Source: an uncultured Clostridia bacterium
Lineage (GTDB): Bacteria > Bacillota > Clostridia > Christensenellales > UBA1750
NCBI GenBank assembly: GCA_904393115.1
Contig: CAJFMX010000003.1
Location: 62,001 to 126,000, forward strand
Length of the DNA: 64,000 nt
Direction of reading: 5' to 3'
The notes beneath the pieces are model-generated. The model searched no databases. It was not told the DNA's origin and was given only the letters and a program-made list of their open reading frames with translations. The position numbers and the translations under genes were made by a program. Of the stretch, positions 5,972-18,700 are shown piece after piece. Each line of letters begins with the position of its first letter. The first letter of the stretch is position 1.

Positions 5972-7120
5972 ATGTCCTGGTTTTCCGTGGAACACCTGAA
6001 GGAGAAAAAGAAGATCGCCGCGCTCGCCCGCGTCGCCCGCCGCAGCCGCGGCGAGAGGCAGCGCAAGGCCGCCCAGGCCCTGGCCGACATCGGCGACGGC
6101 GAGGCCGCGCGCGCCCTGCTCACGCTCGCCGCCAGCGACGACATCGCCGTCTGGGAGCCCGCGCAGGCGGCCATCTGCACAATCCGCAACGAGGCCGCCG
6201 TGCCCGCCCTGTGCGACGCGCTCCTCTCCAGCGGATACAACGGCGTCAAGTGCGTGCTCGCCGCCCTGACCAACATGGAGAGCGATCTGGCCCTAAACGG
6301 CCTGCTCAAGGCGCTGGAGGACCCAAAGCTCGCGCCGGACGTGCTCGCCGCGCTGCGCGGCCGCAACCGCGCCGAGATGGTCCCCCCCTTGGAGGACCTG
6401 CTCGAGGAGCTCACCGCCCGCGAGGCCACGGGCGCAAAGTCCCGCCTCTGGCAGCAGAGCCTCTGCCGCCAGATCCTCGAACTCCTCACCGAGGTCGACG
6501 ACATCGGCGCCATCAAGGCGCTGCACCACTTCCTGCGCAACCGGGAGGGCGCGCCCGTGCGCCTGCGCGTGCAGGCCGCCCACGCCCTGGCCGCAAAGGG
6601 CCTGCCCGGCGAGGAGGCCCTGGCCGGCTACGTCGGCGAGAAGTTCACGGACGTGGACCGCGTGATGCTGCTGATGGAGTGCATGCCCAACGAGGAGCTG
6701 CTGGACATCCTCTTTGCGGTCATGCCGCCCAACTCCGCGGACGAGTTCGGCCAGGCGCTCATGGCCAGCCTCAACCGCATGGAGCCCGGACACTGGAAGT
6801 ACATCGTCGCCCTGATCGAGCGGCTCGACCGCGACAACGCGCGCAGCGCGCTGCTGATGTGGTTCGTGCAGACCAAGGCCGCCAGCCCGGACGCCGCCTA
6901 TGCCCTGGCCCGCCACGGCAACACGCGGCCCGTGCTCGTCAAGCGCCTGGTGGACATGGTCCGCTTCGAGGACCAGGACATCCGCCTGCGCGCCGGCGAC
7001 CTGCTCTACCGCCTCTACGCGGACAAGCTCATCACCGAGGAGGGCGTCCACCTGGTCGAGGCCAAGACGGACGAGGAGGGCAAGGTCACGGACTACGAAT
7101 ACATCGGCTACAAGGACTAA
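5972..7120 (+). CDS. HEAT-repeat protein
   Basis: A 382-residue, helix-rich soluble protein. Repeated units of about 30-35 residues, such as RQRKAAQALADIGDGEAARA, AAVPALCDALLSSGYNGVKC and VRLRVQAAHALAAKGLPGEEAL, have the Ala/Leu spacing of HEAT repeats, so it is probably a protein-binding scaffold. No catalytic motif or signal peptide is seen. The ATG at 5972 is set by GGGGAGG eight bases upstream. The arabinofuranosidase gene begins 22 bases after its stop, so the two are probably co-transcribed; how a HEAT scaffold would serve a glycosidase is not evident. Confidence 0.7.
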   Translation: MSWFSVEHLKEKKKIAALARVARRSRGERQRKAAQALADIGDGEAARALLTLAASDDIAVWEPAQAAICTIRNEAAVPALCDALLSSGYNGVKCVLAALTNMESDLALNGLLKALEDPKLAPDVLAALRGRNRAEMVPPLEDLLEELTAREATGAKSRLWQQSLCRQILELLTEVDDIGAIKALHHFLRNREGAPVRLRVQAAHALAAKGLPGEEALAGYVGEKFTDVDRVMLLMECMPNEELLDILFAVMPPNSADEFGQALMASLNRMEPGHWKYIVALIERLDRDNARSALLMWFVQTKAASPDAAYALARHGNTRPVLVKRLVDMVRFEDQDIRLRAGDLLYRLYADKLITEEGVHLVEAKTDEEGKVTDYEYIGYKD

Positions 7121-7142
7121 AGAGACAGAGGAGGAACCTATC

Positions 7143-8621
7143 ATGCAGGCAAAGCTCACCCTGGACAAGGATTTTTCCATCGGCAAGGTCGACGAAAGGC
7201 TCTACGGCTCCTTCATCGAGCACCTGGGCCGCGCGGTCTACACCGGCATCTTTGAGCCCGGCCACGGCACCGCGGACGAGCAGGGCTTCCGCCGCGACGT
7301 CATGGACCTGATCCGCAAACTGCAGATCCCGATCATCCGCTATCCGGGCGGCAACTTCGTCTCCGGCTACCGCTGGACGGACGGCATCGGCCCCAAGGAC
7401 AAGCGCCCCCGCCGCCTGGACTACGCCTGGACGAGCCTGGAGACGAACCAGTTCGGCATCGACGAGTTCGCCGACTGGTGCAAGAAGGCCGGAACCCACG
7501 CCATGGTCGCGGTGAACCTGGGCACCGGCACGCCCCAGCAGGCCGCAGACCTGGTCGAATACTGCAACTTCCCCGGCGGCACGTACTGGAGCGACCTGCG
7601 CATCGCCAACGGCCACAAGGAGCCGCACAACTTCCGCGTCTGGTGCTTGGGCAACGAGATGGACGGCCCCTGGCAGACCTGCGCCAAGACCGCGGACGAG
7701 TACGGCCACGTCGCCAACGAGGCCGCCAAGATGATGAAGTGGGTCGACCCCACGATCGAGCTGGTCGCCTGCGGGTCCTCCTCCGCGGAGATCGCGACCT
7801 ACCCCGAGTGGGACCGCAAGGTGCTCGAGTGGACGTACGACAACGTGGACTTCCTCTCCATGCACCGCTACTACGGCTACAAGGGCGACGTCACGGCGTA
7901 CCTGGCCTCGTATGCGGACCTGGACGCGTTCCTGAGCGCGGGCATCGCCGCGGCGGACTACGTCAAGGCCTACAAGCGCTCCAAGAAGGTCATGAAGATC
8001 TCCCTGGACGAGTGGAACGCCTGGTACTGCGACCACGGCGCGCAGGAGCCCTGGACCGTCGCCCCGGCCCTGGAGGAGCAGACCTACAACGTCATGGACG
8101 CGCTGTGCGTCGGCGGCCTGCTCTGCACGATGATCAACCGCTCGGACCGCGTGCGCATGGGCTGCCTGGCGCAGCTGGTCAACTGCCTGGCCATCGTCAT
8201 GACCGAGCCCGGGAAGAGCGCCTACGCGCAGACGACCTACTATCCCTTCCTGCACGCCTCGCTCTACGGCCGCGGGGAGGCCCTGCGCCCGCTGCTCAAG
8301 GCCCCGAAGCTCGCTGCCGGAACCGGCGAGTTCGACGCCGTGGCCGCCGCGGCGACCTTTGACGAGGAGAAGGGCGAGATGACCGTCTTTGCCCTGAACC
8401 TGGCGGAGGAAGCGGTCGACCTGCACCTGAGCGCCCGCTCCTTTGCGAACCTTGCGCCCGTGGAGCACATCGTGCTGGACGGCGACCTGTTCGCGCAGAA
8501 CACGTTCGCCGAGCCGGAGAAGGTCCTGCCCCACAGCGCGCCCGTCGCCGCGTGCGAAAAGGGCGAGAGCGACGTCAAGCTGCCGGCGCGGTCCTGGAAC
8601 GTGCTGCGGTTCTCGATTTAA
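7143..8621 (+). CDS. abfA: alpha-L-arabinofuranosidase, GH51
   Basis: A 492-residue intracellular glycosidase that removes arabinofuranosyl side groups from arabinan or arabinoxylan oligomers. It starts MQAKLTLDKDFSIGKVDERLYGS, with FIEHLGRAVYTGIFEPGH. The acid/base Glu is residue 172 (WCLGNEMDGPW) and the nucleophile Glu is residue 290 (KISLDEWNAWY); these positions agree with characterised GH51 enzymes. There is no signal peptide, so it should act on imported oligosaccharides. The C-terminal beta-sandwich ends LPARSWNVLRFSI. Ribosome site GAGGAGG. A terminator follows. Confidence 0.93.
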   Translation: MQAKLTLDKDFSIGKVDERLYGSFIEHLGRAVYTGIFEPGHGTADEQGFRRDVMDLIRKLQIPIIRYPGGNFVSGYRWTDGIGPKDKRPRRLDYAWTSLETNQFGIDEFADWCKKAGTHAMVAVNLGTGTPQQAADLVEYCNFPGGTYWSDLRIANGHKEPHNFRVWCLGNEMDGPWQTCAKTADEYGHVANEAAKMMKWVDPTIELVACGSSSAEIATYPEWDRKVLEWTYDNVDFLSMHRYYGYKGDVTAYLASYADLDAFLSAGIAAADYVKAYKRSKKVMKISLDEWNAWYCDHGAQEPWTVAPALEEQTYNVMDALCVGGLLCTMINRSDRVRMGCLAQLVNCLAIVMTEPGKSAYAQTTYYPFLHASLYGRGEALRPLLKAPKLAAGTGEFDAVAAAATFDEEKGEMTVFALNLAEEAVDLHLSARSFANLAPVEHIVLDGDLFAQNTFAEPEKVLPHSAPVAACEKGESDVKLPARSWNVLRFSI

Positions 8622-8674: not shown

Positions 8675-8778
8675 TCTGAAATGCGGAACGCCCGGCGAGG
8701 AATTTCGGCTGCAGATTGAGCGAAAGGGAAATTTGTGTTAACATATACGTAAGATATATTTTGGGGGAGGGGAACGAT

Positions 8779-9627
8779 ATGCCTTACGTTTCGACAATGG
8801 AGATTTACCAGGATGGCCTGCAGAAGGGATATGGCACGCCCATGTTCAACTGCATCAACTACGAGATGATCCGCTGGGCCATCGAGGCCGCGGAGGAGGT
8901 CGGCATGCCCGTGCTCATCGGCCACTTCTACGGCTTTGAGACGAACATGGACCCCGCGGTGGCCGAGATGGTGACCAAGTACTACGCCTCCAAGGTCAAG
9001 GTGCCCGTCGCGTTCCACCTGGACCACTGCCCCACGGCCGAGATCTGCATCAGCCGCATGAAGCACTTCGACTCCGTGATGATCGACGGCTCGCACTACG
9101 ACTTTGAGGAGAACGTCCGCCTGACCAAGGAGGTCGCCGACATCGCGCACAAGATGGGCATCGTCGTCGAGGCGGAGCTGGGCAAGGTCGGCAACGCCGG
9201 CAACGCCGCGGACGTCAACAACCCCGACACATATACGGACGTGCAGCAGGCCGTGGAGTTCGTCGAGCGCACGGGCTGCGATTCCCTGGCCATCGCCATC
9301 GGCAATGCGCACGGAAACTACGTCGCCAAGCCCAACCTGGCCTTTGACCGCCTGCGCGAGCTGCGCGCCGCGCTCGATCTTCCCCTGGTGCTGCACGGCG
9401 GAAGCGGCATCCCGGACGACCAGTTCGGCCGCTGCGCCGCGGAGGGCATGAGCAAGTTCAACATCTTCACGGAATACAATATGACGCTCTCCAACGCCAT
9501 GAAGGCTTCGCTGGATCGGCAGAACAAGGGCGGCCTGCAGGTGCTCTGCGACTGCAAGGAGGCCTGCAAGGAGCTCGTGCGCCACAAGATTCGCATCGTC
9601 AACCCGAAGGGACTGCGGGTGGTGTAA
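8779..9627 (+). CDS. class II (zinc) fructose-bisphosphate-type aldolase
   Basis: A 282-residue aldolase that should cleave a ketose bisphosphate or phosphate to dihydroxyacetone phosphate and an aldehyde. Asp82 and His83 in AFHLDHC are the catalytic Asp and a zinc ligand; DGSHYDFEEN, EAELGKVG (Glu133), IGNAHG and LHGGSG carry the rest of the site. It leads a cluster with a GNAT gene, a PfkB sugar kinase and a fucose/arabinose-isomerase relative, an isomerase-kinase-aldolase set. The true sugar may therefore not be fructose (tagatose, ribulose or deoxy-sugar derivatives are possible). Start chosen after GGGGGAGGGG. Confidence 0.85.
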   Translation: MPYVSTMEIYQDGLQKGYGTPMFNCINYEMIRWAIEAAEEVGMPVLIGHFYGFETNMDPAVAEMVTKYYASKVKVPVAFHLDHCPTAEICISRMKHFDSVMIDGSHYDFEENVRLTKEVADIAHKMGIVVEAELGKVGNAGNAADVNNPDTYTDVQQAVEFVERTGCDSLAIAIGNAHGNYVAKPNLAFDRLRELRAALDLPLVLHGGSGIPDDQFGRCAAEGMSKFNIFTEYNMTLSNAMKASLDRQNKGGLQVLCDCKEACKELVRHKIRIVNPKGLRVV

Positions 9628-10200
9628 ATGAAAAACACGTTCACCGGGAAGCTCGTGCGCCTGCGCGCGTTTGAGCCCGAGGACCTCGCCCTGTTCGAGG
9701 CGGAAGATAAAAACCGCGACACGGAAAAGGATCGTTGCGACTACATGATCCAGCTTCCGCGCGCGGCCTGGAAGCTGCGGGAGGACTTCCCCAGCCGCCT
9801 AAGGCGCGAGGGCGAGATGGAGACCTTCCGCTTCATGATCGAGGACCTGGAGGGCAACACCGTCGGTTCCATCAACGCGCACGACGTGGACGCGCGCATG
9901 GGCACGTTCAGCTACGGCCTGGGCATCTACGAGCCGTATCGCCGCAGGGGATACGCGCGGGAGGCCATCCTGCTGCTGCTCCGGTTCTACTTCCTGGAGC
10001 TGCGGATGCACAAGTGCAACACCGCGGCCTATTCCTTCAACGAAGCGTCCATCGGGCTGCACCGGAGCCTGGGCTTTGTGGAGGAGGGGCGCCTGCGGGA
10101 GTCCGTCTACACAAAGGGGCGCTACTTCGACGACGTGTGCTTCGGCATGACGCGCGAAGAGTTCCTCGAAAAATACAGCGAATTTGCTCAGGAGGGGTGA
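9628..10200 (+). CDS. GNAT acetyltransferase, RimJ/RimL type
   Basis: A 190-residue acetyl-CoA-dependent N-acetyltransferase. It opens GKLVRLRAFEPEDLALFEAE, typical of the RimJ/RimL/SpeG branch. Motif A is YEPYRRRGYAREAILLLLRF, followed by HKCNTAAYSFNEASIGLHRSLGF and EGRLRESVYTKGRYFD. Its ATG directly follows the aldolase TAA, so they share an operon. The substrate is unknown, and a link to the sugar enzymes around it is only positional. Confidence 0.85.
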   Translation: MKNTFTGKLVRLRAFEPEDLALFEAEDKNRDTEKDRCDYMIQLPRAAWKLREDFPSRLRREGEMETFRFMIEDLEGNTVGSINAHDVDARMGTFSYGLGIYEPYRRRGYAREAILLLLRFYFLELRMHKCNTAAYSFNEASIGLHRSLGFVEEGRLRESVYTKGRYFDDVCFGMTREEFLEKYSEFAQEG

Positions 10201-10207
10201 AGCACCC

Positions 10208-11161
10208 GTGAAGAGGGATTTGATCGCGTACGGAACCCCGTTCATGGATAATCTCGTTCACATCGACCACCTGCCCACGAAAAAGGACGAGGGCGCGCGC
10301 ATTTTGCAGACGAGCTGGCAGGGCGGCGGCAAGGTCTCCTCGGCGCTGACGGCCTTTGGCCAGCTCGGCGGGGCCTCGTCCATGCTGGGCGTGGTCGGCG
10401 CGGACAGCTATGGCGACTTCCTGCTCCGCGACTACGCACGCTACGACGTCGACACCAGCCATATGGTCCGCGACGGCGTCAACTCCTTTTCCCTCGTCCT
10501 CTCGGACGAGGTGACGCACGGCCGCAACATCATCGGCCGGCCGGGAACGACGCGCCGGTACGCGCTGGAGGACATCGACGAGGACTTTGTGCGGCAGCAC
10601 CACGTGCTGCACCTGGAGAACGCCGACCCCGTCTCCCACCGGCTGGCGGCCATCATGCGGGAGAACGGCGGCATCGTCTGCTTTGACGGCGACGGCTATT
10701 CTGACGCGACGCAGGCCATGCTGCCCGAGATCGACGTATTCATCGGCTCGGAGTTCTACTACAACAAGCTCTTTGGGGAGAGCGAGGAGTACGAGAAAAA
10801 CCTCAGCGCGGTCCGCGCGCGCGGGCCGAAGGTCGTGGTCTTCACCCTGGGCGACAAGGGCTCCGTCGTCGCCTGGGAGGACGGCTGGTCGTTTGCGCCC
10901 GGGTTCAAGGTCCCGGTCGTGGACACGCTCGGCGCGGGCGACGTCTACCACGGCGGCTATATCTTCGCCATGATGCAGGGCAAGCGCCCGGACGAGTGCG
11001 CGCGCTTTGCCAACGCCGTGGCGGCCATCAAGTGCACGGGGATCGGCGGCCGCGCCGGCACGCCGAACCTGGAAATGGTCGAGCAGTTCCTGGAGACGGG
11101 GACGTTCGACCGCAGCCTCATCGAGGAAAAGACAAAGCTCTACGCCAACTTCGGCGTCTAA
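10208..11161 (+). CDS. PfkB-family carbohydrate kinase
   Basis: A 317-residue ribokinase-like kinase. It starts MKRDLIAYGTPFMDNLVHID and has the glycine-rich signature WQGGGKVSSALTAFGQLG. The second signature, VVDTLGAGDVYHGGYIFA, carries the catalytic Asp and the anion hole. GTG at 10208 is set by GGAGGGG at 10191-10197. Together with the aldolase and isomerase neighbours it should phosphorylate the ketose made by the isomerase. The precise sugar cannot be read from sequence. Confidence 0.88.
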   Translation: MKRDLIAYGTPFMDNLVHIDHLPTKKDEGARILQTSWQGGGKVSSALTAFGQLGGASSMLGVVGADSYGDFLLRDYARYDVDTSHMVRDGVNSFSLVLSDEVTHGRNIIGRPGTTRRYALEDIDEDFVRQHHVLHLENADPVSHRLAAIMRENGGIVCFDGDGYSDATQAMLPEIDVFIGSEFYYNKLFGESEEYEKNLSAVRARGPKVVVFTLGDKGSVVAWEDGWSFAPGFKVPVVDTLGAGDVYHGGYIFAMMQGKRPDECARFANAVAAIKCTGIGGRAGTPNLEMVEQFLETGTFDRSLIEEKTKLYANFGV

Positions 11162-11186
11162 AACAGAAAAAAACGGAGGGGTGTAC

Positions 11187-12578
11187 ATGGAAAAGTTCGT
11201 AAAGATCGGCATCGTGCCCATCAAGCGCGGCTTCACGGACATGGTCAGCGCGCTGGAGCAGAAGGACCTCTTCCTGAAGAAATGTCATCAGATCGCGCCC
11301 GAGGCGGTGGATCTGTGCGATTTGGAGGGCGTGCTGCCTGAGGGCATCCTCTACGACGCGAGCCAGCTGGACGCGGTGTGCGACTTCCTGCACGCGCAGA
11401 AGGCCGACGCGATCTTCATGCCGCACTGCGACTTCGGGTGCGAGGAGGTCGTCGGGCGCCTGGGCGCGCGGATGAAGCTGCCCGTGCTCGTCTGGGGCAA
11501 CCGCGACCCGCTGCCCGTGCCCGGCCAGCGCGACCGCGACACCCAGTGCGGCACGCTCGCCTCGACCAAGTGCCTGCAGCGCTACAAGGTGCCCTTCTCC
11601 TACATCATCAACAGCGACGTGGACGGCGAGATGTTCCGCAAGGGCTTTGTGGACTTCTGCGCGGTCGCGGCCGTGGCCAAGAAGGCGCGCGGCATGCGCA
11701 TCCTGCAGGTCGGCTCTCGCCCGCAGCCGTTCCTTTCCGTCATCTACAACGAGGACGAGCTGCTGCGCAAGTTCGGCATCGAGATCACGCCCTACTCCTC
11801 CGCGGTGCTCGCCAACGACGTCAAGAAGATCCTGGAAACGCGCGCCGACGAGGTCGACGAGGGCGTCCGCCTCTACGCGGAGAAGGTCGACGTCTCCAAG
11901 ATGCCGGTCGAAAGCCAGCGCGCGCAGCAGGCGCTCAAGCTCGCCATCCTGGACAAGGTCGTTTCGTCCAAGTCCGACGGCGTGGCCCTGGAGTGCTGGA
12001 CCGTGCTCGGCCAGGCCATCGGCGTGGGCGGCTGCCAGGTGATCGGCATGCTGGCGGACCTGGGCATCCCCTGCGCGTGCGAGACGGACGTGCTGGGCGC
12101 CATCTCCGCGGTGCTGCTCAAGGCCGCGACGCTCGGCCGCGAGCCCATCTTCTTTGCGGACATCACCGTGCGCCATGCCAACGACGACAACACGGAGCTC
12201 CTCTGGCACTGCGGACCGTTCCCGGTGTCCCTGGCGCATCCGAACGCAAAGCCCGCGATCGCCCCGGGCGGCCAGGGCCAGTTTGAGCTGCACAACGGCG
12301 CGGTGACCATCTGCCGCATGGACGCGCTGGAGGGCAAGTACACCCTCATGAGCGGCCAGGGCACGGCGGTGGACGGACCGGCAAAGGGCGGCACCTACGT
12401 CTGGGTCAAGGTCAGCGATTGGGAGAAGTGGGAGGAGAAGCTCGTCTTCGGCCCCTACATCCACCACGTGGCCGGCGCGTTTGGCTCCTACAGCCAGATC
12501 CTCAGCGAGGCCTGCAAGTACATTGGCGAGGTGGAGCCCGATCCCATGGACCCGGTCAGCCGCGTCCTGGGAAAGTGA
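11187..12578 (+). CDS. L-fucose/L-arabinose isomerase-family protein
   Basis: A 463-residue protein beginning MEKFVKIGIVPIKRGFTDMV. The layout matches the FucI/AraA fold: an N-terminal Rossmann-like part with MPHCDFGCEEVVGRL, then VLVWGNRDP, a middle domain with MRILQVGSRPQPFLSV and YNEDELLRKFGIEI, and a C-terminal sugar-binding part with EPIFFADITVRHANDDN, WHCGPFP and HHVAGAFG. FucI/AraA enzymes interconvert aldoses and ketoses with a divalent metal. It follows the PfkB gene by 25 bases with GGAGGGG upstream. It completes the isomerase-kinase-aldolase set; the natural aldose is uncertain. Confidence 0.82.
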   Translation: MEKFVKIGIVPIKRGFTDMVSALEQKDLFLKKCHQIAPEAVDLCDLEGVLPEGILYDASQLDAVCDFLHAQKADAIFMPHCDFGCEEVVGRLGARMKLPVLVWGNRDPLPVPGQRDRDTQCGTLASTKCLQRYKVPFSYIINSDVDGEMFRKGFVDFCAVAAVAKKARGMRILQVGSRPQPFLSVIYNEDELLRKFGIEITPYSSAVLANDVKKILETRADEVDEGVRLYAEKVDVSKMPVESQRAQQALKLAILDKVVSSKSDGVALECWTVLGQAIGVGGCQVIGMLADLGIPCACETDVLGAISAVLLKAATLGREPIFFADITVRHANDDNTELLWHCGPFPVSLAHPNAKPAIAPGGQGQFELHNGAVTICRMDALEGKYTLMSGQGTAVDGPAKGGTYVWVKVSDWEKWEEKLVFGPYIHHVAGAFGSYSQILSEACKYIGEVEPDPMDPVSRVLGK

Positions 12579-12624: not shown

Positions 12625-12668
12625 AAAAGCCCCGCGGCGGGTTCCGCGCCTGCCGCAGGGCTTTTTTT
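12625..12668 (+). terminator. Rho-independent terminator after the sugar operon
   Basis: AAAGCCC and CGGCGGG pair with CCTGCCG and AGGGCTTT around a short loop; a T run follows. Confidence 0.85.
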
Positions 12669-12711: not shown

Positions 12712-13512
12712 GTGGACGAAGAAAGACGACTCCTCGCATGGCTGAAGGAAAAGGGCCGCGTCGCGCTGGCCTTCTCCGGCGGGGTGGATTCAACGTATTT
12801 GCTCTCTGTCGCGCTGGAGGCCCTGGGCCGGGAGAACGTGCTGCCCATGCTCGTGCAGGCGCAGCTCCACTCCCGCCGGGAGGGGAGCGAGGCGCGGGAA
12901 TACGCCGCGAAATTGGGCGCAGCGCTCCAGATTTTGCCCATGGACATCGCGGACGTGCCGGGCCTTGTGGAGAACCCGCCCGACCGCTGCTACATCTGCA
13001 AGCGGGCGCTCTTTGCCAGGATGGAGCAGGAGGCCCGGGCGCGCGGCTTCGGCGTGATCCTGGACGGCACAAACGCCGACGACGTGGGCGACTACCGCCC
13101 GGGGATGCGCGCCCTCGCGGAACTGGGCGTGCAGAGCCCGCTCAAGGAGCTGGGCTTTACCAAGGCGTGCATCCGCCGCCTCTCCGCCGCGCGCGGCCTG
13201 CCCACGGCGGAAAAGCCCGCGCTGGCGTGCCTGGCCACGCGCATTCCCTTTGGCACGCGCCTGGATGCGGAGACCATGCGCCGCATCGACGATGCGGAGA
13301 CGCGCCTGATGGCGCTGGGCTTTGCCCAGGTCCGCGTCCGCGCGCACGGCGGCGTTGCGCGCATCGAGGTGCCCAAGGACCGGATTCCGGAGGCCGCGGC
13401 GCGCGCGCAGGAGGTGGCCGAGGCGGTCCGCGCCTGCGGATTCGACTTTGCGGCCCTGGACCTGGACGGGTATAAGATGGGTTCCCTGAACCTGCATGTG
13501 GGGGAGAAATGA
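12712..13512 (+). CDS. larE: ATP-dependent sacrificial sulfur transferase LarE
   Basis: A 266-residue PP-loop protein that adenylates the carboxylates of the nickel-pincer precursor and turns them into thiocarboxylates, in the single-Cys form donating its own sulfur. The PP-loop is FSGGVDSTYLL (residues 21-31). Cys173 in KPALACLATRIPFG matches the sacrificial Cys (Cys176 in Lactiplantibacillus plantarum LarE). DRCYICKRALF and DGTNADDVGDYRPG are typical. GTG start at 12712, with AAGGAGG six bases upstream. The stop overlaps larB. LarA itself is not in the window. Confidence 0.92.
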   Translation: MDEERRLLAWLKEKGRVALAFSGGVDSTYLLSVALEALGRENVLPMLVQAQLHSRREGSEAREYAAKLGAALQILPMDIADVPGLVENPPDRCYICKRALFARMEQEARARGFGVILDGTNADDVGDYRPGMRALAELGVQSPLKELGFTKACIRRLSAARGLPTAEKPALACLATRIPFGTRLDAETMRRIDDAETRLMALGFAQVRVRAHGGVARIEVPKDRIPEAAARAQEVAEAVRACGFDFAALDLDGYKMGSLNLHVGEK

Positions 13513-14273
13513 TGGAAATTCGAGAGATTTTGGGCAAGGTCCGCGCGGGCGAGATGAGCGTGGAGGACGCGATCATCCAGATGCGGCTGGAGCCCTTTGA
13601 GGACCTGGGATACGCGCGCGTGGACCACCACCGCGCCCTGCGCCAGGGCGTGGCCGAGGTCATCTACTGCGCGGGCAAGACCGCGGAGCAGACGCGCGGC
13701 ATCGCCCAGGCCATGCTCCGCCGCGGCGCGGAGAACATCCTGCTCACGCGCGTGCGGCCCGAGCACTATGCGGCCGTGCGCGACCTGGACGAGGCCGTGG
13801 AGTATCACGAGGCGGCGCGGATCGTCGTGGTGCGGCGGCGTCCCGTGGCCATGCCGGAGACGCACATCTGCGTCGTCACCGCGGGGACGAGCGACCTGCC
13901 CGTCGCCGAGGAGGCGGCCATCACCGCCGAGGTCCTGGGCAACCGCGTGGACCGCGTCTACGACGCGGGCGTGGCGGGCCTGCACCGCCTGCTCGCCAGC
14001 GCGGAAACGCTCATGCGCGCCAATGCACTGGTGGTCGTCGCGGGCATGGAGGGCGCGCTGCCCTCGGTCGTGGGCGGGCTCGTGGACCGGCCGGTCATCG
14101 CGGTGCCGACCTCCGTCGGCTACGGCGCGAACTTCGGCGGGCTCTCCGCGCTGCTCACGATGCTCAACTCCTGCGCCAGCGGCATCTCCGTCGTCAACAT
14201 CGACAACGGCTTTGGCGCGGGCTACATCGCCTCCCAGATCAATCACACCGGTTTCGTCCCGGGAAATGTATAA
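13509..14273 (+). CDS. larB: nickel-pincer cofactor biosynthesis protein LarB
   Basis: A 254-residue protein (or 253 if the second, adjacent ATG at 13512 is used). LarB carboxylates and hydrolyses nicotinic acid adenine dinucleotide to give the dicarboxylated mononucleotide. The N-terminal part (LEPFEDLGYARVDHHRALRQG) is LarB-specific. The C-terminal half resembles AIR carboxylase PurE: VTAGTSDLPVAEEAAITAEVLG, the RVYDAGVAGLHRL segment, VVVAGMEGALPSVVGGL and PVIAVPTSVGYGANFGGLSAL. ATGA overlap with larE shows coupling. Confidence 0.93.
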   Translation: MMEIREILGKVRAGEMSVEDAIIQMRLEPFEDLGYARVDHHRALRQGVAEVIYCAGKTAEQTRGIAQAMLRRGAENILLTRVRPEHYAAVRDLDEAVEYHEAARIVVVRRRPVAMPETHICVVTAGTSDLPVAEEAAITAEVLGNRVDRVYDAGVAGLHRLLASAETLMRANALVVVAGMEGALPSVVGGLVDRPVIAVPTSVGYGANFGGLSALLTMLNSCASGISVVNIDNGFGAGYIASQINHTGFVPGNV

Positions 14274-14299: not shown

Positions 14300-15115
14300 A
14301 TGAAAATTCTCTATTTGGACTGCTTCTCCGGCATCAGTGGAGACATGACCATGGGCGCGCTGCTCGACGCGGGCGGCGACGCCGAGGCCCTGAAGCGGGA
14401 CCTGGCCAAGCTCGGCCTGGGCGACGCCTTCCACCTGCACATCCACAAGGCCCTCAAAAACGGCGTGATGTGCACGCACGTGGACGTCGCGACGGACCAC
14501 GTGCACGGCGACCACGAGCACGACCACGGCCATGACCACGAGCACAGCCACGACCACGATCATGACCACGAGCACGACCACGGCCACGAGCACGTGCACC
14601 GCGGCCTGCACGACGTGCTGGCGGTGATCGACGGCAGCACCCTGGAGGAGGAGGTCAAGGAGACGGCGCGGCGCATCTTCCGCACGCTGGCCGAGGCGGA
14701 GGCCAAGATGCACGGCACGACCGTGGACGAGGTGCACTTCCACGAGGTCGGCGCCATCGACGCCATTGTGGACGTGGTCGGCGCCGCGATCCTGGTCCAC
14801 CAGCTCAAGCCGGACCGCATCCTCTGCTCCCGCATCAACGTGGGATCGGGGTATGTGCAGTGCGCGCACGGGCTCTTCCCCGTGCCGGCGCCGGCGGTTG
14901 CGGAGATCCTGCGCGGCAAGCCCTGGTTCATGGGCCCGGGCCGCGGGGAGCTGTGCACGCCCACGGGCGCGGCCATCGCCGCGACGCTGAGCGAGGAGTT
15001 CGGGCGCATGCCGGTTCTGGAGGTGGACGCCATTGGCTACGGCGCGGGCCAGCGCGAGATGGAGACGCTCAACGCCCTGCGCGTGATCGTGGGACACGAG
15101 TCAAAAAAAGCGTAG
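14300..15115 (+). CDS. larC: LarC nickel insertase, N-terminal part (frame 0)
   Basis: A 271-residue product if translation stops at the TAG at 15113. It starts MKILYLDCFSGISGDMTMGA, the LarC signature, and carries a His/Asp-rich stretch (about residues 68-100, HEHDHGHDHEHSHDHD) likely to store or bind nickel. HFHEVGAIDAIVDVVG and GRGELCTPTGAAIAAT are conserved. The rest of LarC continues in the -1 frame after an AAAAAAA slip site at 15103-15109, giving a 418-residue full protein. This layout is known for larC1/larC2 in L. plantarum. LarC uses CTP to insert nickel into the pincer nucleotide. Confidence 0.92.
   Translation: MKILYLDCFSGISGDMTMGALLDAGGDAEALKRDLAKLGLGDAFHLHIHKALKNGVMCTHVDVATDHVHGDHEHDHGHDHEHSHDHDHDHEHDHGHEHVHRGLHDVLAVIDGSTLEEEVKETARRIFRTLAEAEAKMHGTTVDEVHFHEVGAIDAIVDVVGAAILVHQLKPDRILCSRINVGSGYVQCAHGLFPVPAPAVAEILRGKPWFMGPGRGELCTPTGAAIAATLSEEFGRMPVLEVDAIGYGAGQREMETLNALRVIVGHESKKA
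15103..15109 (+). other. programmed -1 ribosomal frameshift site in larC
   Basis: The heptamer A-AAA-AAA is in phase with frame 0 (Lys-Lys codons at 15104-15109), four bases before the TAG stop. Slipping one base back joins frame 0 (GHES-KK) to SVAPEVTVLTANIDD in the -1 frame. A small hairpin CGGT/ACCG (15128-15139) lies downstream; no strong stimulator is obvious. Confidence 0.75.
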
Positions 15116-15555
15116 CCCCCGAGGTGACGGTGCTGACCGCGAACATCGACGACATGCCGGGAGAGGCCTTCGGCTACCTCCTGGAGCGGCTGATGGGCGC
15201 GGGCGCGCTGGACGTCGCCTTCCTGCCCATGACGATGAAGAAGAGCCGTCCGGGCGTGATGGTGCAGGTGGTCTCCCGCGTGGAGGACGAGGAGCGCATG
15301 GGACGGCTGCTCCTTGCGGAGTCCAGCACCTTGGGGGTTCGCCTTGCGCGGATGCGGCGCATGGTGCAGGAGAGGGAGTTTGTGCAGGTGCAGACGCCCT
15401 ATGGTCCCATCGACATGAAGGTTGCGCGGGATACGGGCCGCGCCTGCCCGGAGTACGAGCAGGCGGCTGCCCTCGCCCGGGAGGCGGGCGCGCCCTATCT
15501 TGCGGTGTACGAGGCCGCGATGCAGGCCTATCGAGAGCGGAAAAAGGAGGAATAG
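15109..15555 (+). CDS. larC: LarC nickel insertase, C-terminal part (-1 frame)
   Basis: Read by -1 frameshifting from 15109, giving 148 further residues of LarC. VTVLTANIDDMPGEAFGYLL, FLPMTMKKSRPGVMVQVVS and TLGVRLARMRRMVQ match the LarC C-terminal domain. An independent start at GTG 15124 is possible but has no ribosome site, so frameshifting is the better reading. A plain inactivating mutation is less likely because the break falls exactly on a slippery heptamer at the known LarC1/LarC2 boundary and both halves are otherwise intact. Five bases after its stop comes the GuaA-like gene. Confidence 0.85.
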   Translation, partial: SVAPEVTVLTANIDDMPGEAFGYLLERLMGAGALDVAFLPMTMKKSRPGVMVQVVSRVEDEERMGRLLLAESSTLGVRLARMRRMVQEREFVQVQTPYGPIDMKVARDTGRACPEYEQAAALAREAGAPYLAVYEAAMQAYRERKKEE

Positions 15556-15559
15556 CGGC

Positions 15560-17005
15560 ATGATGCAGCGGCTGGTATTGGTGGTGAACACGGGCGGGAG
15601 CGAGGGGCTCTCCATGGTCAAGGGCATCCGCAGCGCGGGCGTTTTCTGCACGATGACGGATGCGGCGCGCCTGGACGTGCCCGAGGAGGCGAAGGGCGTG
15701 GTGGTCATCGGCGGGCCGAGCGAATACGCGCGCCCCTGCCTGCGCAAGCTGCTGGACCGGCAGCTGCCCATCCTGGCCTTTGGCGACCCGGCGGCGCGCC
15801 TCTGCGAGGAGCTGGGCGGCCAGGTCACGGGACATGCGGTGACGAACCAGCTGCGGGACGTGCACTTTGCGAACCTGGGCGTGTGCAAGGACGTCGAAGG
15901 GGGCATGCGCATGCTGCAGAGCGCGGAGTACCTGAGCCTTCCGCAGGGCTGCCGCACGCTGAGCGTCGCCGAGGGCGTGACGCTGGGCTTTGACGACGCG
16001 CAAGGGCGCTGCACGGGCTTCCAGTTCATGCCCGAGGCGCACGACGTCGAGGCCAGCGAGATCATCGGCAACTTCCTCTGGAACGTGTTGGGCCTCCAGC
16101 CCAACTATACGTTTGAGGGCTACATCGACCAGGCCGTGACCAGGATCCGCGACGCCGTGGGCGACGGGCAGGCGGTCTGCGTGCTCTCGGGCGGCGTGGA
16201 CAGCACGGCCGCGGCGTGCCTGGCCAAGCGCGCGGTGGGGGACCGGCTGCACTGCCTCGTGATCGAGAAGGGGCTGGGGCGCAAGGGCGAGCTGGAGTGC
16301 ATCCAGCAGGTCCTGGGCGGGGAGCTGGGCCTGGACTACCGGCTCATCCAGGCGCAGGGCCGCGTGATGGAGCAGCTGCGCAACTGCGTGACGCCCAGCC
16401 AGAAGCGGCAGGCCGTGGAGCAGTTCATCGCGGACCGCATCTCCGACGAGGTCGCGCGCCTGGGCGGGCACGTCGTCGTGGTCAAGGGGACCAACTACAC
16501 CGAGCTGCTGGGCGGCGAGGACCACGGGCGCCTGGCCGGGGACATCCCGGTGATCGAGCCGCTGCGCCTGCTGTTCAAGGACGAGGTCCGGCAGATCGCG
16601 GGGCTCCTGGGCGTGCCGGAGACCGTGGTCAAGCGCCAGCACTACCCCAGCGCGGGCATCGCGCTGCGCTGCATGGGCGCCGTGGACGGCGAAAAGCTCG
16701 CCGCGCTGCGCCAGGCGGAGGAGATCCTGCGCGAGACGCTGGAGGAATCCGGGCAGAACAAGCCCTCCACGCAGGCCTTTGCGGTCCTTGCGGACTTCTC
16801 CTCCGCGTTCCTGGACGGCGTTCCGCGCTATGTCGTGATCCTGCGCGCGGTCAACGCCTCGGGCGAGGGGACCATCCACGTCCGCCGCCTGCCGCAGGAC
16901 GTGCTCGAGCGCGCAGCGGAGCGCATCATGAAGGAGACGCCCCGCGTCTACCGCGTGGTCTACGATCTGTCGGCCGTTCCCCCGGCGCACGTCGAGTGGG
17001 AGTGA
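15560..17005 (+). CDS. GMP-synthetase (GuaA) paralogue with inactive glutaminase domain
   Basis: A 481-residue protein with GuaA architecture: amidotransferase-like domain (about 1-190), ATP pyrophosphatase domain with SGGVDST at 210-216, and the GuaA dimerisation domain ending AHVEWE. The glutaminase nucleophile region, GICYG in GuaA, is AFGDPA, so the Cys is lost, and the catalytic His of QFHPE is Met (QFMPEAHD). The substrate-side motif HPFPGPGLA is changed to QHYPSAGIA, and VDHGLLRK to IEKGLGRK. It therefore probably activates a different substrate, or uses free ammonia. It follows larC by four bases, with AAGGAGG inside the larC end. Function unknown; a role in or near pincer-cofactor metabolism is inference from position. 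Confidence 0.75.
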   Translation: MMQRLVLVVNTGGSEGLSMVKGIRSAGVFCTMTDAARLDVPEEAKGVVVIGGPSEYARPCLRKLLDRQLPILAFGDPAARLCEELGGQVTGHAVTNQLRDVHFANLGVCKDVEGGMRMLQSAEYLSLPQGCRTLSVAEGVTLGFDDAQGRCTGFQFMPEAHDVEASEIIGNFLWNVLGLQPNYTFEGYIDQAVTRIRDAVGDGQAVCVLSGGVDSTAAACLAKRAVGDRLHCLVIEKGLGRKGELECIQQVLGGELGLDYRLIQAQGRVMEQLRNCVTPSQKRQAVEQFIADRISDEVARLGGHVVVVKGTNYTELLGGEDHGRLAGDIPVIEPLRLLFKDEVRQIAGLLGVPETVVKRQHYPSAGIALRCMGAVDGEKLAALRQAEEILRETLEESGQNKPSTQAFAVLADFSSAFLDGVPRYVVILRAVNASGEGTIHVRRLPQDVLERAAERIMKETPRVYRVVYDLSAVPPAHVEWE

Positions 17006-17014
17006 GCGCCGCAA

Positions 17015-17068
17015 GAAAAAACGCCGATCTGCCTTGGATGGATTCCGTCCGCGCGATCGGCGTTTTTT
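17015..17068 (+). terminator. Rho-independent terminator after the lar/GuaA-like operon
   Basis: AAAAAACGCCGATC pairs with GATCGGCGTTTTTT, with an inner imperfect loop. Confidence 0.9.
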
Positions 17069-17093
17069 CGTAGCGAAAAGAACGGCGATGTGC

Positions 17094-18139: not shown

Positions 18140-18442
18140 TTACCTTTCGCCTCTTTCTCTGCGAGCCTGGTAGCACTCGCTGCAGTAGACGGGACGATCA
18201 TTCTTGGGAATGAAGGGGATCTTGGTGGGCTTGCCGCACTCTGCGCAGATCGCATCGTACATCTCGCGGGGGCGAGAATCGTCGCGGCGGGCGCCACCGT
18301 TGGCCTTGCGAGCATCGCGGCACGCCTTGCAGCGGGAAGGCTCGTTCTGGAAGCCCTTTTCAGCGTAGAAAGCCTGTTCACCCGCGGTGAAGACGAATTC
18401 GGCGCCGCAGTCTCTGCAAATCAAAGTCTTGTCTTCGTACAT
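18140..18442 (-). CDS. zinc-ribbon protein with two paired CxxC knuckles
   Basis: A 100-residue basic protein. The first knuckle is ICRDCGAEFVF...RCKACRDARK and the second is ICAECGKPTKIPF...YCSECYQARR, so two zinc sites are expected. Such zinc-ribbon proteins are common in Clostridia and usually unassigned; nucleic-acid binding is likely. I start at MYEDKTL because GGAGGG lies upstream and the frame before it runs through the candidate structured RNA. The gene is preceded by that RNA as a long leader and has its own terminator. Confidence 0.85.
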   Translation of the reverse strand: MYEDKTLICRDCGAEFVFTAGEQAFYAEKGFQNEPSRCKACRDARKANGGARRDDSRPREMYDAICAECGKPTKIPFIPKNDRPVYCSECYQARRERGER

Positions 18443-18479
18443 GGTAAGGTATCCCTCCGATAGATTGTTGTGCCTGTTT

Positions 18480-18700
18480 TTTGGTAAGCTGACCTGGTTT
18501 TTGCCCCCACACTCGCCAACTGGAAGGTTCGCTCCTAACGGTGTCTCCGTCCCCACTACTACCCCTCTCGGATTGCTCCGGTTGGACTTACTCCTAGGAC
18601 GCGCCATGTTCATCGGCATTTTGCCGACTTATGTGGATCGCTTCGCCCGCGTCTGGCATCGACTTTCAACCACAGACCTTGCCTCGGATCAAGCAACTGC
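18480..18700 (-). ncRNA. candidate structured RNA leading into the zinc-ribbon gene
   Basis: About 250 bases lie between a good minus-strand promoter and the zinc-ribbon ATG, with no credible coding frame. The minus-strand transcript can form several helices: GGTTG/CAACC (18671-18667 with 18584-18580), GACGCG/CGCGTC (18653-18648 with 18603-18598), TCGGCA/TGCCGA (18627-18622 with 18618-18613), a small GCAA-loop hairpin near 18580-18569 and ACGG/CCGT (18550-18538). G-rich single-stranded runs lie between. I cannot assign a class: it lacks the tmRNA, RNase P and SRP signatures that I know. It could be a regulatory leader or a stand-alone RNA of a class such as raiA, which needs a covariance search. 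Confidence 0.55.

Follow-up and report, generated by a model that had tools for sequence, protein, structure and literature searches.

The window analysed here is a stretch of 64,000 nucleotides from the genome of a gut bacterium, referred to below as G000, and the locus of interest is a compact lar operon on the forward strand that ends in a gene resembling guaA, here given the working name guaAx. The first gene is larE, encoding an ATP-dependent sulfur transferase (12712-13512; TIGR00268, 303.6 bits), followed by larB, encoding an NaAD carboxylase/hydrolase (13509-14273; NF033503, 298.6 bits), and by larC, the nickel-insertion gene, which is split into two reading frames, larC1 (14300-15115; TIGR00299, 223 bits) and larC2 (15103-15555; NF052512, 131.7 bits). 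A run of AAAAAAA (15103-15109) sits just ahead of the larC1 stop in the segment 15103-15115, and larC2 is apparently entered through a -1 slip on this run. The two larC frames also overlap in a relative (locus L022). guaAx itself (15560-17005) encodes 481 amino acids and starts four bases after the larC stop codon (15553-15555), as the first-pass annotation had stated. Its Shine-Dalgarno sequence, AGGAGG, is contained within the 3' end of larC, which together with the 4-nt gap (15541-15559 for both) suggests translational coupling of larC and guaAx. Downstream of guaAx is an intrinsic terminator consisting of a hairpin and T run (17015-17069, forward strand; RNA fold of -37.9 kcal/mol, z -6.05). 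A weaker terminator-like hairpin (12634-12661, forward strand), picked up by the consensus scan only, separates larE from the sugar genes before it and suggests that larE-larB-larC-guaAx is a transcription unit of its own. These genes are likely to be carried on a single transcript. Of the earlier claim that lar and guaAx share a terminator, the strong hairpin is borne out, while the sharing is read from its position only. The sugar cluster upstream of lar (8776-12578) includes a class-II aldolase, a PfkB kinase and a fucose/sulfoquinovose-isomerase-like gene, the last of which falls far under the cut-off of its best isomerase model (114.6 of 700 bits). This cluster is retained in the related genome G009 and partly in G006.

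The guaAx protein can be divided into a dead class-I glutaminase domain (residues ~1-180), a PP-loop ATP-pyrophosphatase domain (~183-370) and a GuaA-type dimerisation domain (~377-481). In phmmer searches, GMP synthetases alone scored better than an E value of 1e-20 (best 5.8e-57). The protein stays under the cut-offs of both GMP synthase models (NF000848, 272.1 of 400 bits; TIGR00884, 232.1 of 338.75 bits), and with a whole-length GuaA similarity of 272 bits a chance match is not an issue. It also stays under the cut-offs of the models for LarE (TIGR00268, 29 bits, cut-off 150) and for NadE/NMN synthetase (53.6 of 255 and 39.2 of 63.65 bits). A predicted structure had been proposed as a check, and the AlphaFold2 model has the GMP-synthetase fold, with good quality from residue ~180 onward and a poorly modelled glutaminase domain (pLDDT <50 at residues 90-165). 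GMP synthetases come first among its structural matches (Z up to 29.8), LarE next and then NAD synthetases, although likeness of fold does not establish likeness of function. For instance, the T. thermophilus GuaA structure 2ywc aligns with a VIA Z of 29.2 over 388 residues and the M. jannaschii ATPPase 6jp9 with 28.9, and guaAx shares with GuaA the domain order, the PP-loop, the dimerisation domain, the Lys and Arg that contact the ATP phosphates, the Arg that contacts XMP O6 and a terminal EWE. LarE (8cp4, 5udq) shares the PP-loop ATPase fold (Z 21.4 over 247 residues) and the operon; however, it is only 17% identical, and guaAx has no identified sulfur-transfer Cys in an operon that already holds a normal LarE. 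The NH3-dependent NAD and NMN synthetases (1xng, 3fiu), which amidate nicotinate nucleotides without a glutaminase of their own, share the PP-loop fold as well (Z 20.2 and 17.4) but are built from other domains, while guaAx has the GuaA dimerisation domain.

Contacts to XMP were taken from the T. thermophilus GuaA structure with XMP (PMC11448925) and a review of GMP synthetases (PMC10526850) and mapped through alignments. The first-pass description of a full GuaA-type protein with a dead glutaminase and an intact PP-loop holds in the alignment: GICYG has become AFGDPA, with Gly75 in place of the nucleophilic Cys, QFHPE has become QFMPE, with Met157 in place of the catalytic His, and the class-I glutaminase residues are thus absent, while SGGVDST is unaltered. 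On the ATP side, guaAx retains K340 and R359 (T. thermophilus K359 and R378), and the adenylation position, D371 of PfGMPS, is still acidic. ATP binding is likely to be retained. The substrate side was also correctly described as changed, from (H/Q)PFPGPGLA to QHYPSAGIA and from VDHGLL to IEKGLG. In T. thermophilus GuaA, XMP is contacted by Arg288, PGP382-384, Gln424 and Lys495 (PMC11448925). The equivalents R283, which reads XMP O6, and Q405 are present in guaAx, as are R465, E479 and the C-terminal Glu, E481. However, PGP is replaced by PSA (two of three residues), and the XMP-phosphate Lys, K495 in T. thermophilus and K547 in PfGMPS, is replaced by V473. Furthermore, the catalytic lid IKSHHNVGGLP is deleted, taking with it the PfGMPS residues K386, H388, H389 and N390, and the equivalent of PfGMPS E374 is lost. 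The loop that carries R249 in M. jannaschii is shortened, and the canonical Arg of the region equivalent to M. jannaschii 243-250 falls in a gap of the MAFFT alignment, whereas phmmer places R423 there, which makes this position ambiguous. The XMP site is therefore altered in its lid, Lys and PGP motif and kept at R283 and Q405.

These losses bear directly on whether guaAx could be an ammonia-dependent GMP synthetase, an explanation that its GuaA ancestry and the retained R283, Q405, R465, E479 and C-terminal Glu would favour. In PfGMPS, K547, K386, H388 and H389 are required, adenyl-XMP is no longer formed once K547, K386 or H389 is lost, and mutations in the lid or at K547 abolish glutamine- and ammonium-dependent activity alike (PMC10526850). 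Since equivalents of K547, K386 and H389 are lost, synthesis of GMP by guaAx from either nitrogen source is very unlikely. Furthermore, a normal guaA lies on another contig of the same genome (G000:C44:9945-11465) and is 33% identical to guaAx, which answers the first-pass question of whether a normal guaA exists elsewhere; guaAx is not the genome's GMP synthetase. Canonical GMP synthetase genes are likewise found in G006, G007, G008 and G009, and all but one of the genomes with a glutaminase-dead copy have one, be it complete, truncated by a contig end or of the ATPPase subunit type. The exception is G001 of a sister genus, where guaAx is the sole GuaA-like match, probably because of an assembly gap. 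An ammonia-dependent GMP synthetase is accordingly the least probable of the explanations considered, and very improbable. The G001 copy (locus L024, contig G001:C75) comes from an assembly that is 97% complete. A second GMP synthetase gene, encoding the ATPPase alone (two-subunit type), is present in several genomes of the order (L028 14911-15834, L030 7165-8085, L029 7966-8985), in some cases alongside a full-length gene and in others as the sole canonical one.

Selection on guaAx can be estimated from its close relatives. Its dN/dS (NG86) is 0.31 between G000 and G008, 0.25 between G000 and G009 and 0.29 between G000 and G007; for comparison, canonical guaA and larB give 0.17 and 0.14 between G000 and G009. 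The gene is constrained, though less tightly than canonical guaA. Values near 0.3 indicate purifying selection, so guaAx is no pseudogene and, very probably, no ammonia-dependent GMP synthetase either; a new function is probable. The close guaAx clade was found in 6 of 396 genomes of the order, all in a single family; five of these belong to the same genus as the window and the sixth to a sister genus. A GTDB scan with one genome per species returned five guaAx loci, every one already in the order's set, and no relative was found among viral contigs. More distant glutaminase-dead copies occur in 10 genomes of the order (G005, G010, G273, G242, G200, G328, G157, G044, G319 and G373). These Cys-to-Gly paralogues resemble guaAx in having lost the Cys, the His and the lid and in being additional to a canonical GMP synthetase, but they are only 30-35% identical to it, have no lar neighbours and keep an acceptor loop closer to that of GuaA (QPFPxxGLA). 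The Cys-to-Gly change is found in all 15 glutaminase-dead members that could be scored and the catalytic His is absent from 16 of 16; the lid is missing from every member with coverage, guaAx and all 10 distant members among them; and K340 and R359 are invariant across 14. The acceptor loop RQHYPxAGIALRC(M/V)G is specific to the window's genus, where all 5 copies with coverage have it. Canonical GuaA and guaAx come out as separate groups in an unrooted tree, each with support of 100/100, and the G005 and G010 copies adjoin guaAx (92/93). This topology, from a tree built without an outgroup, fits loss of the glutaminase before arrival beside lar. The paralogue family, with Cys-to-Gly and no lid, was detected in this order only; across the phylum its profile does not split dead copies from canonical GuaA by score, and the apparent restriction comes from match counts, nearly every genome having one GuaA match. 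Among open-licence papers, we found no published account of a glutaminase-dead GuaA paralogue or of a lar operon that includes a guaA-like gene.

The linkage to lar is real but narrow, being limited to one genus. guaAx lies directly 3' of larC in G000, G008 and G009, and directly 3' of larE in G006 (25 bp), where the contig stops inside guaAx; LarA is present in that genome and LarB and LarC are unseen, consistent with an assembly gap. LarA was found in all four of these genomes. In G007, the contig begins within guaAx, and no lar gene was detected in the 85%-complete assembly. In G001, whose guaAx is 44% identical, the gene and an alcohol-dehydrogenase-like neighbour point away from each other, and a separate contig has larE-larB-larC without guaAx. 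Co-occurrence with larB, larC and larE is thus seen beside lar in four of five members of one genus, and not across lineages. The 10 distant members have no lar gene in the fetched flanks, larC is present in 1 of their 10 genomes versus 55 of 396 across the order (no enrichment), and about 140 other lar loci have no guaAx. A search of the Cys-less clade for lar neighbours, suggested by the first-pass annotation, therefore revealed no preference in the family as a whole; adjacency holds within the genus, where it is kept despite a different gene order, although no lar gene was detected in the 85%-complete G007, and it fails in G001, the nearest outside relative. The idea that dead GuaA members generally cluster with lar was rejected on these counts.

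Alternatively, guaAx could be a passenger: a diverged guaA copy that happened to land among the lar genes and persists for reasons that have nothing to do with them. Canonical guaA has settled independently after larC in three other lineages (G034, G093 and G572) among about 144 lar loci, where about 0.06 would be expected by position. In G034, the order is larE-larB-larC-guaA-purE-purC-purF (L105 3583-7845, reverse strand), so that lar genes head a purine operon, and in G572 guaA has its own purine riboswitch. Only G093, where the gene is the second guaA of the genome and lies near a phage integrase, is left without an explanation, and a general guaA-lar link was therefore discarded as support for an NPN role. 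Since guaA can settle behind lar for purine reasons, adjacency weighs less as evidence of such a role. The separate location of guaAx in G001 would also suit a passenger. However, guaAx has stayed with lar while its protein sequence diverged by 50% and, in G006, the gene order changed, and in the window it follows larC by four nucleotides with its ribosome-binding site inside that gene. We consider a passenger improbable, though far less so than a GMP synthetase. At locus L234, two purine riboswitches directly 3' of a lar operon (8007-8108 and 9938-10039, forward strand) precede guaA and a xanthine/uracil-type permease.

The first-pass annotation had suggested that guaAx may carry out a new adenylation connected with metabolism of the pincer cofactor. 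Such a step might target a pyridinium nucleotide, whether P2CMN, PCTMN or a side product, and adenylate its carboxylate or carbonyl in repair, salvage or modification. Consistent with this, guaAx shares an operon with lar in one genus in two different arrangements, and among solved structures only GMP synthetase comes closer in fold than LarE, which adenylates P2CMN (PMC9283937). PP-loop enzymes have a common fold regardless of substrate, however, and the pathway looks complete: LarE keeps its PP-loop and, in the alignment, a Cys at the sacrificial position (KPALACLATR), LarB and LarC appear normal, and the LarA of G000 scores 589.6 bits with the model for ordinary lactate racemase. NPN synthesis in G000 therefore has no missing step, and guaAx would be accessory at most. 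Replacement of a defective LarE by guaAx was likewise rejected, as LarE retains its PP-loop and reactive Cys. Together with the roughly 140 lar loci that do without guaAx, and the sister-genus and wider-family copies unlinked to lar, this makes an extra nickel-pincer step doubtful, below even the passenger; marginally more doubtful still is a dedicated nickel-pincer enzyme that would use ATP to activate the carboxylate of a pyridinium nucleotide, in a step (repair, salvage or a modified cofactor) beyond LarB, LarE and LarC. What stands of the proposal is the changed acceptor side, the kept ATP side and the genus-level operon, set against complete lar genes and no family-wide preference; an adenylating role in pincer-cofactor metabolism is no more than possible, and the pyridinium or purine substrate that had been inferred is conjectural.

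The explanation we favour, at about even odds, is that guaAx is a selected, repurposed GMP-synthetase paralogue, an ATP-pyrophosphatase acting on a substrate other than XMP. The enzyme would still bind ATP and would adenylate a different acceptor, the nucleophile would come from a source other than its own glutaminase domain, and the dead domain may serve as a structural or docking scaffold. Predicted co-transcription with lar in the genus suggests that the cell needs the guaAx product while it is making the nickel-pincer cofactor. Since guaAx is missing from most bacteria that have lar genes, however, it does not belong to the core of that pathway. Counting against a repurposed enzyme, loss of the lid removes adenylation residues of GMP synthetase, and the ATP chemistry may be gone too; the lar linkage comes from one genus, with lar on another contig in G001 and no lar gene detected in G007 (contig cut, 85% complete), and the glutaminase domain is poorly modelled. 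The main rival is a non-catalytic or regulatory subunit that binds ATP and partners (e.g., canonical GMP synthetase, LarE or LarC) and makes no product. The deleted lid residues and dead glutaminase, in a protein that nevertheless has the fold and an ATP site, are in keeping with this, and the very different C-termini of distant members suggest weak constraint on the acceptor site. However, the strongly conserved PP-loop, K340 and R359 and the genus-specific loop suggest a constrained active site, and a non-catalytic role is judged unlikely, though it ranks ahead of the other alternatives. GMP synthetase is regarded as a single-purpose enzyme. If selection maintains a family of additional copies without the glutaminase, the lid and part of the XMP site but with the ATP site, that family would form a new branch of the PP-loop ATP-pyrophosphatases, likely annotated as GMP synthase, and its place within the lar operon of one genus offers a concrete test for further steps of the nickel-pincer cofactor.

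Beyond the operon, the window also contains a raiA RNA (RF03072, 175.5 bits; 18480-18686, reverse strand) that overlaps the start of a small treble-clef zinc-finger gene (18140-18619, reverse strand). The pair recurs in L022, with raiA at 6649-6855 and the zinc finger at 6823-7182.
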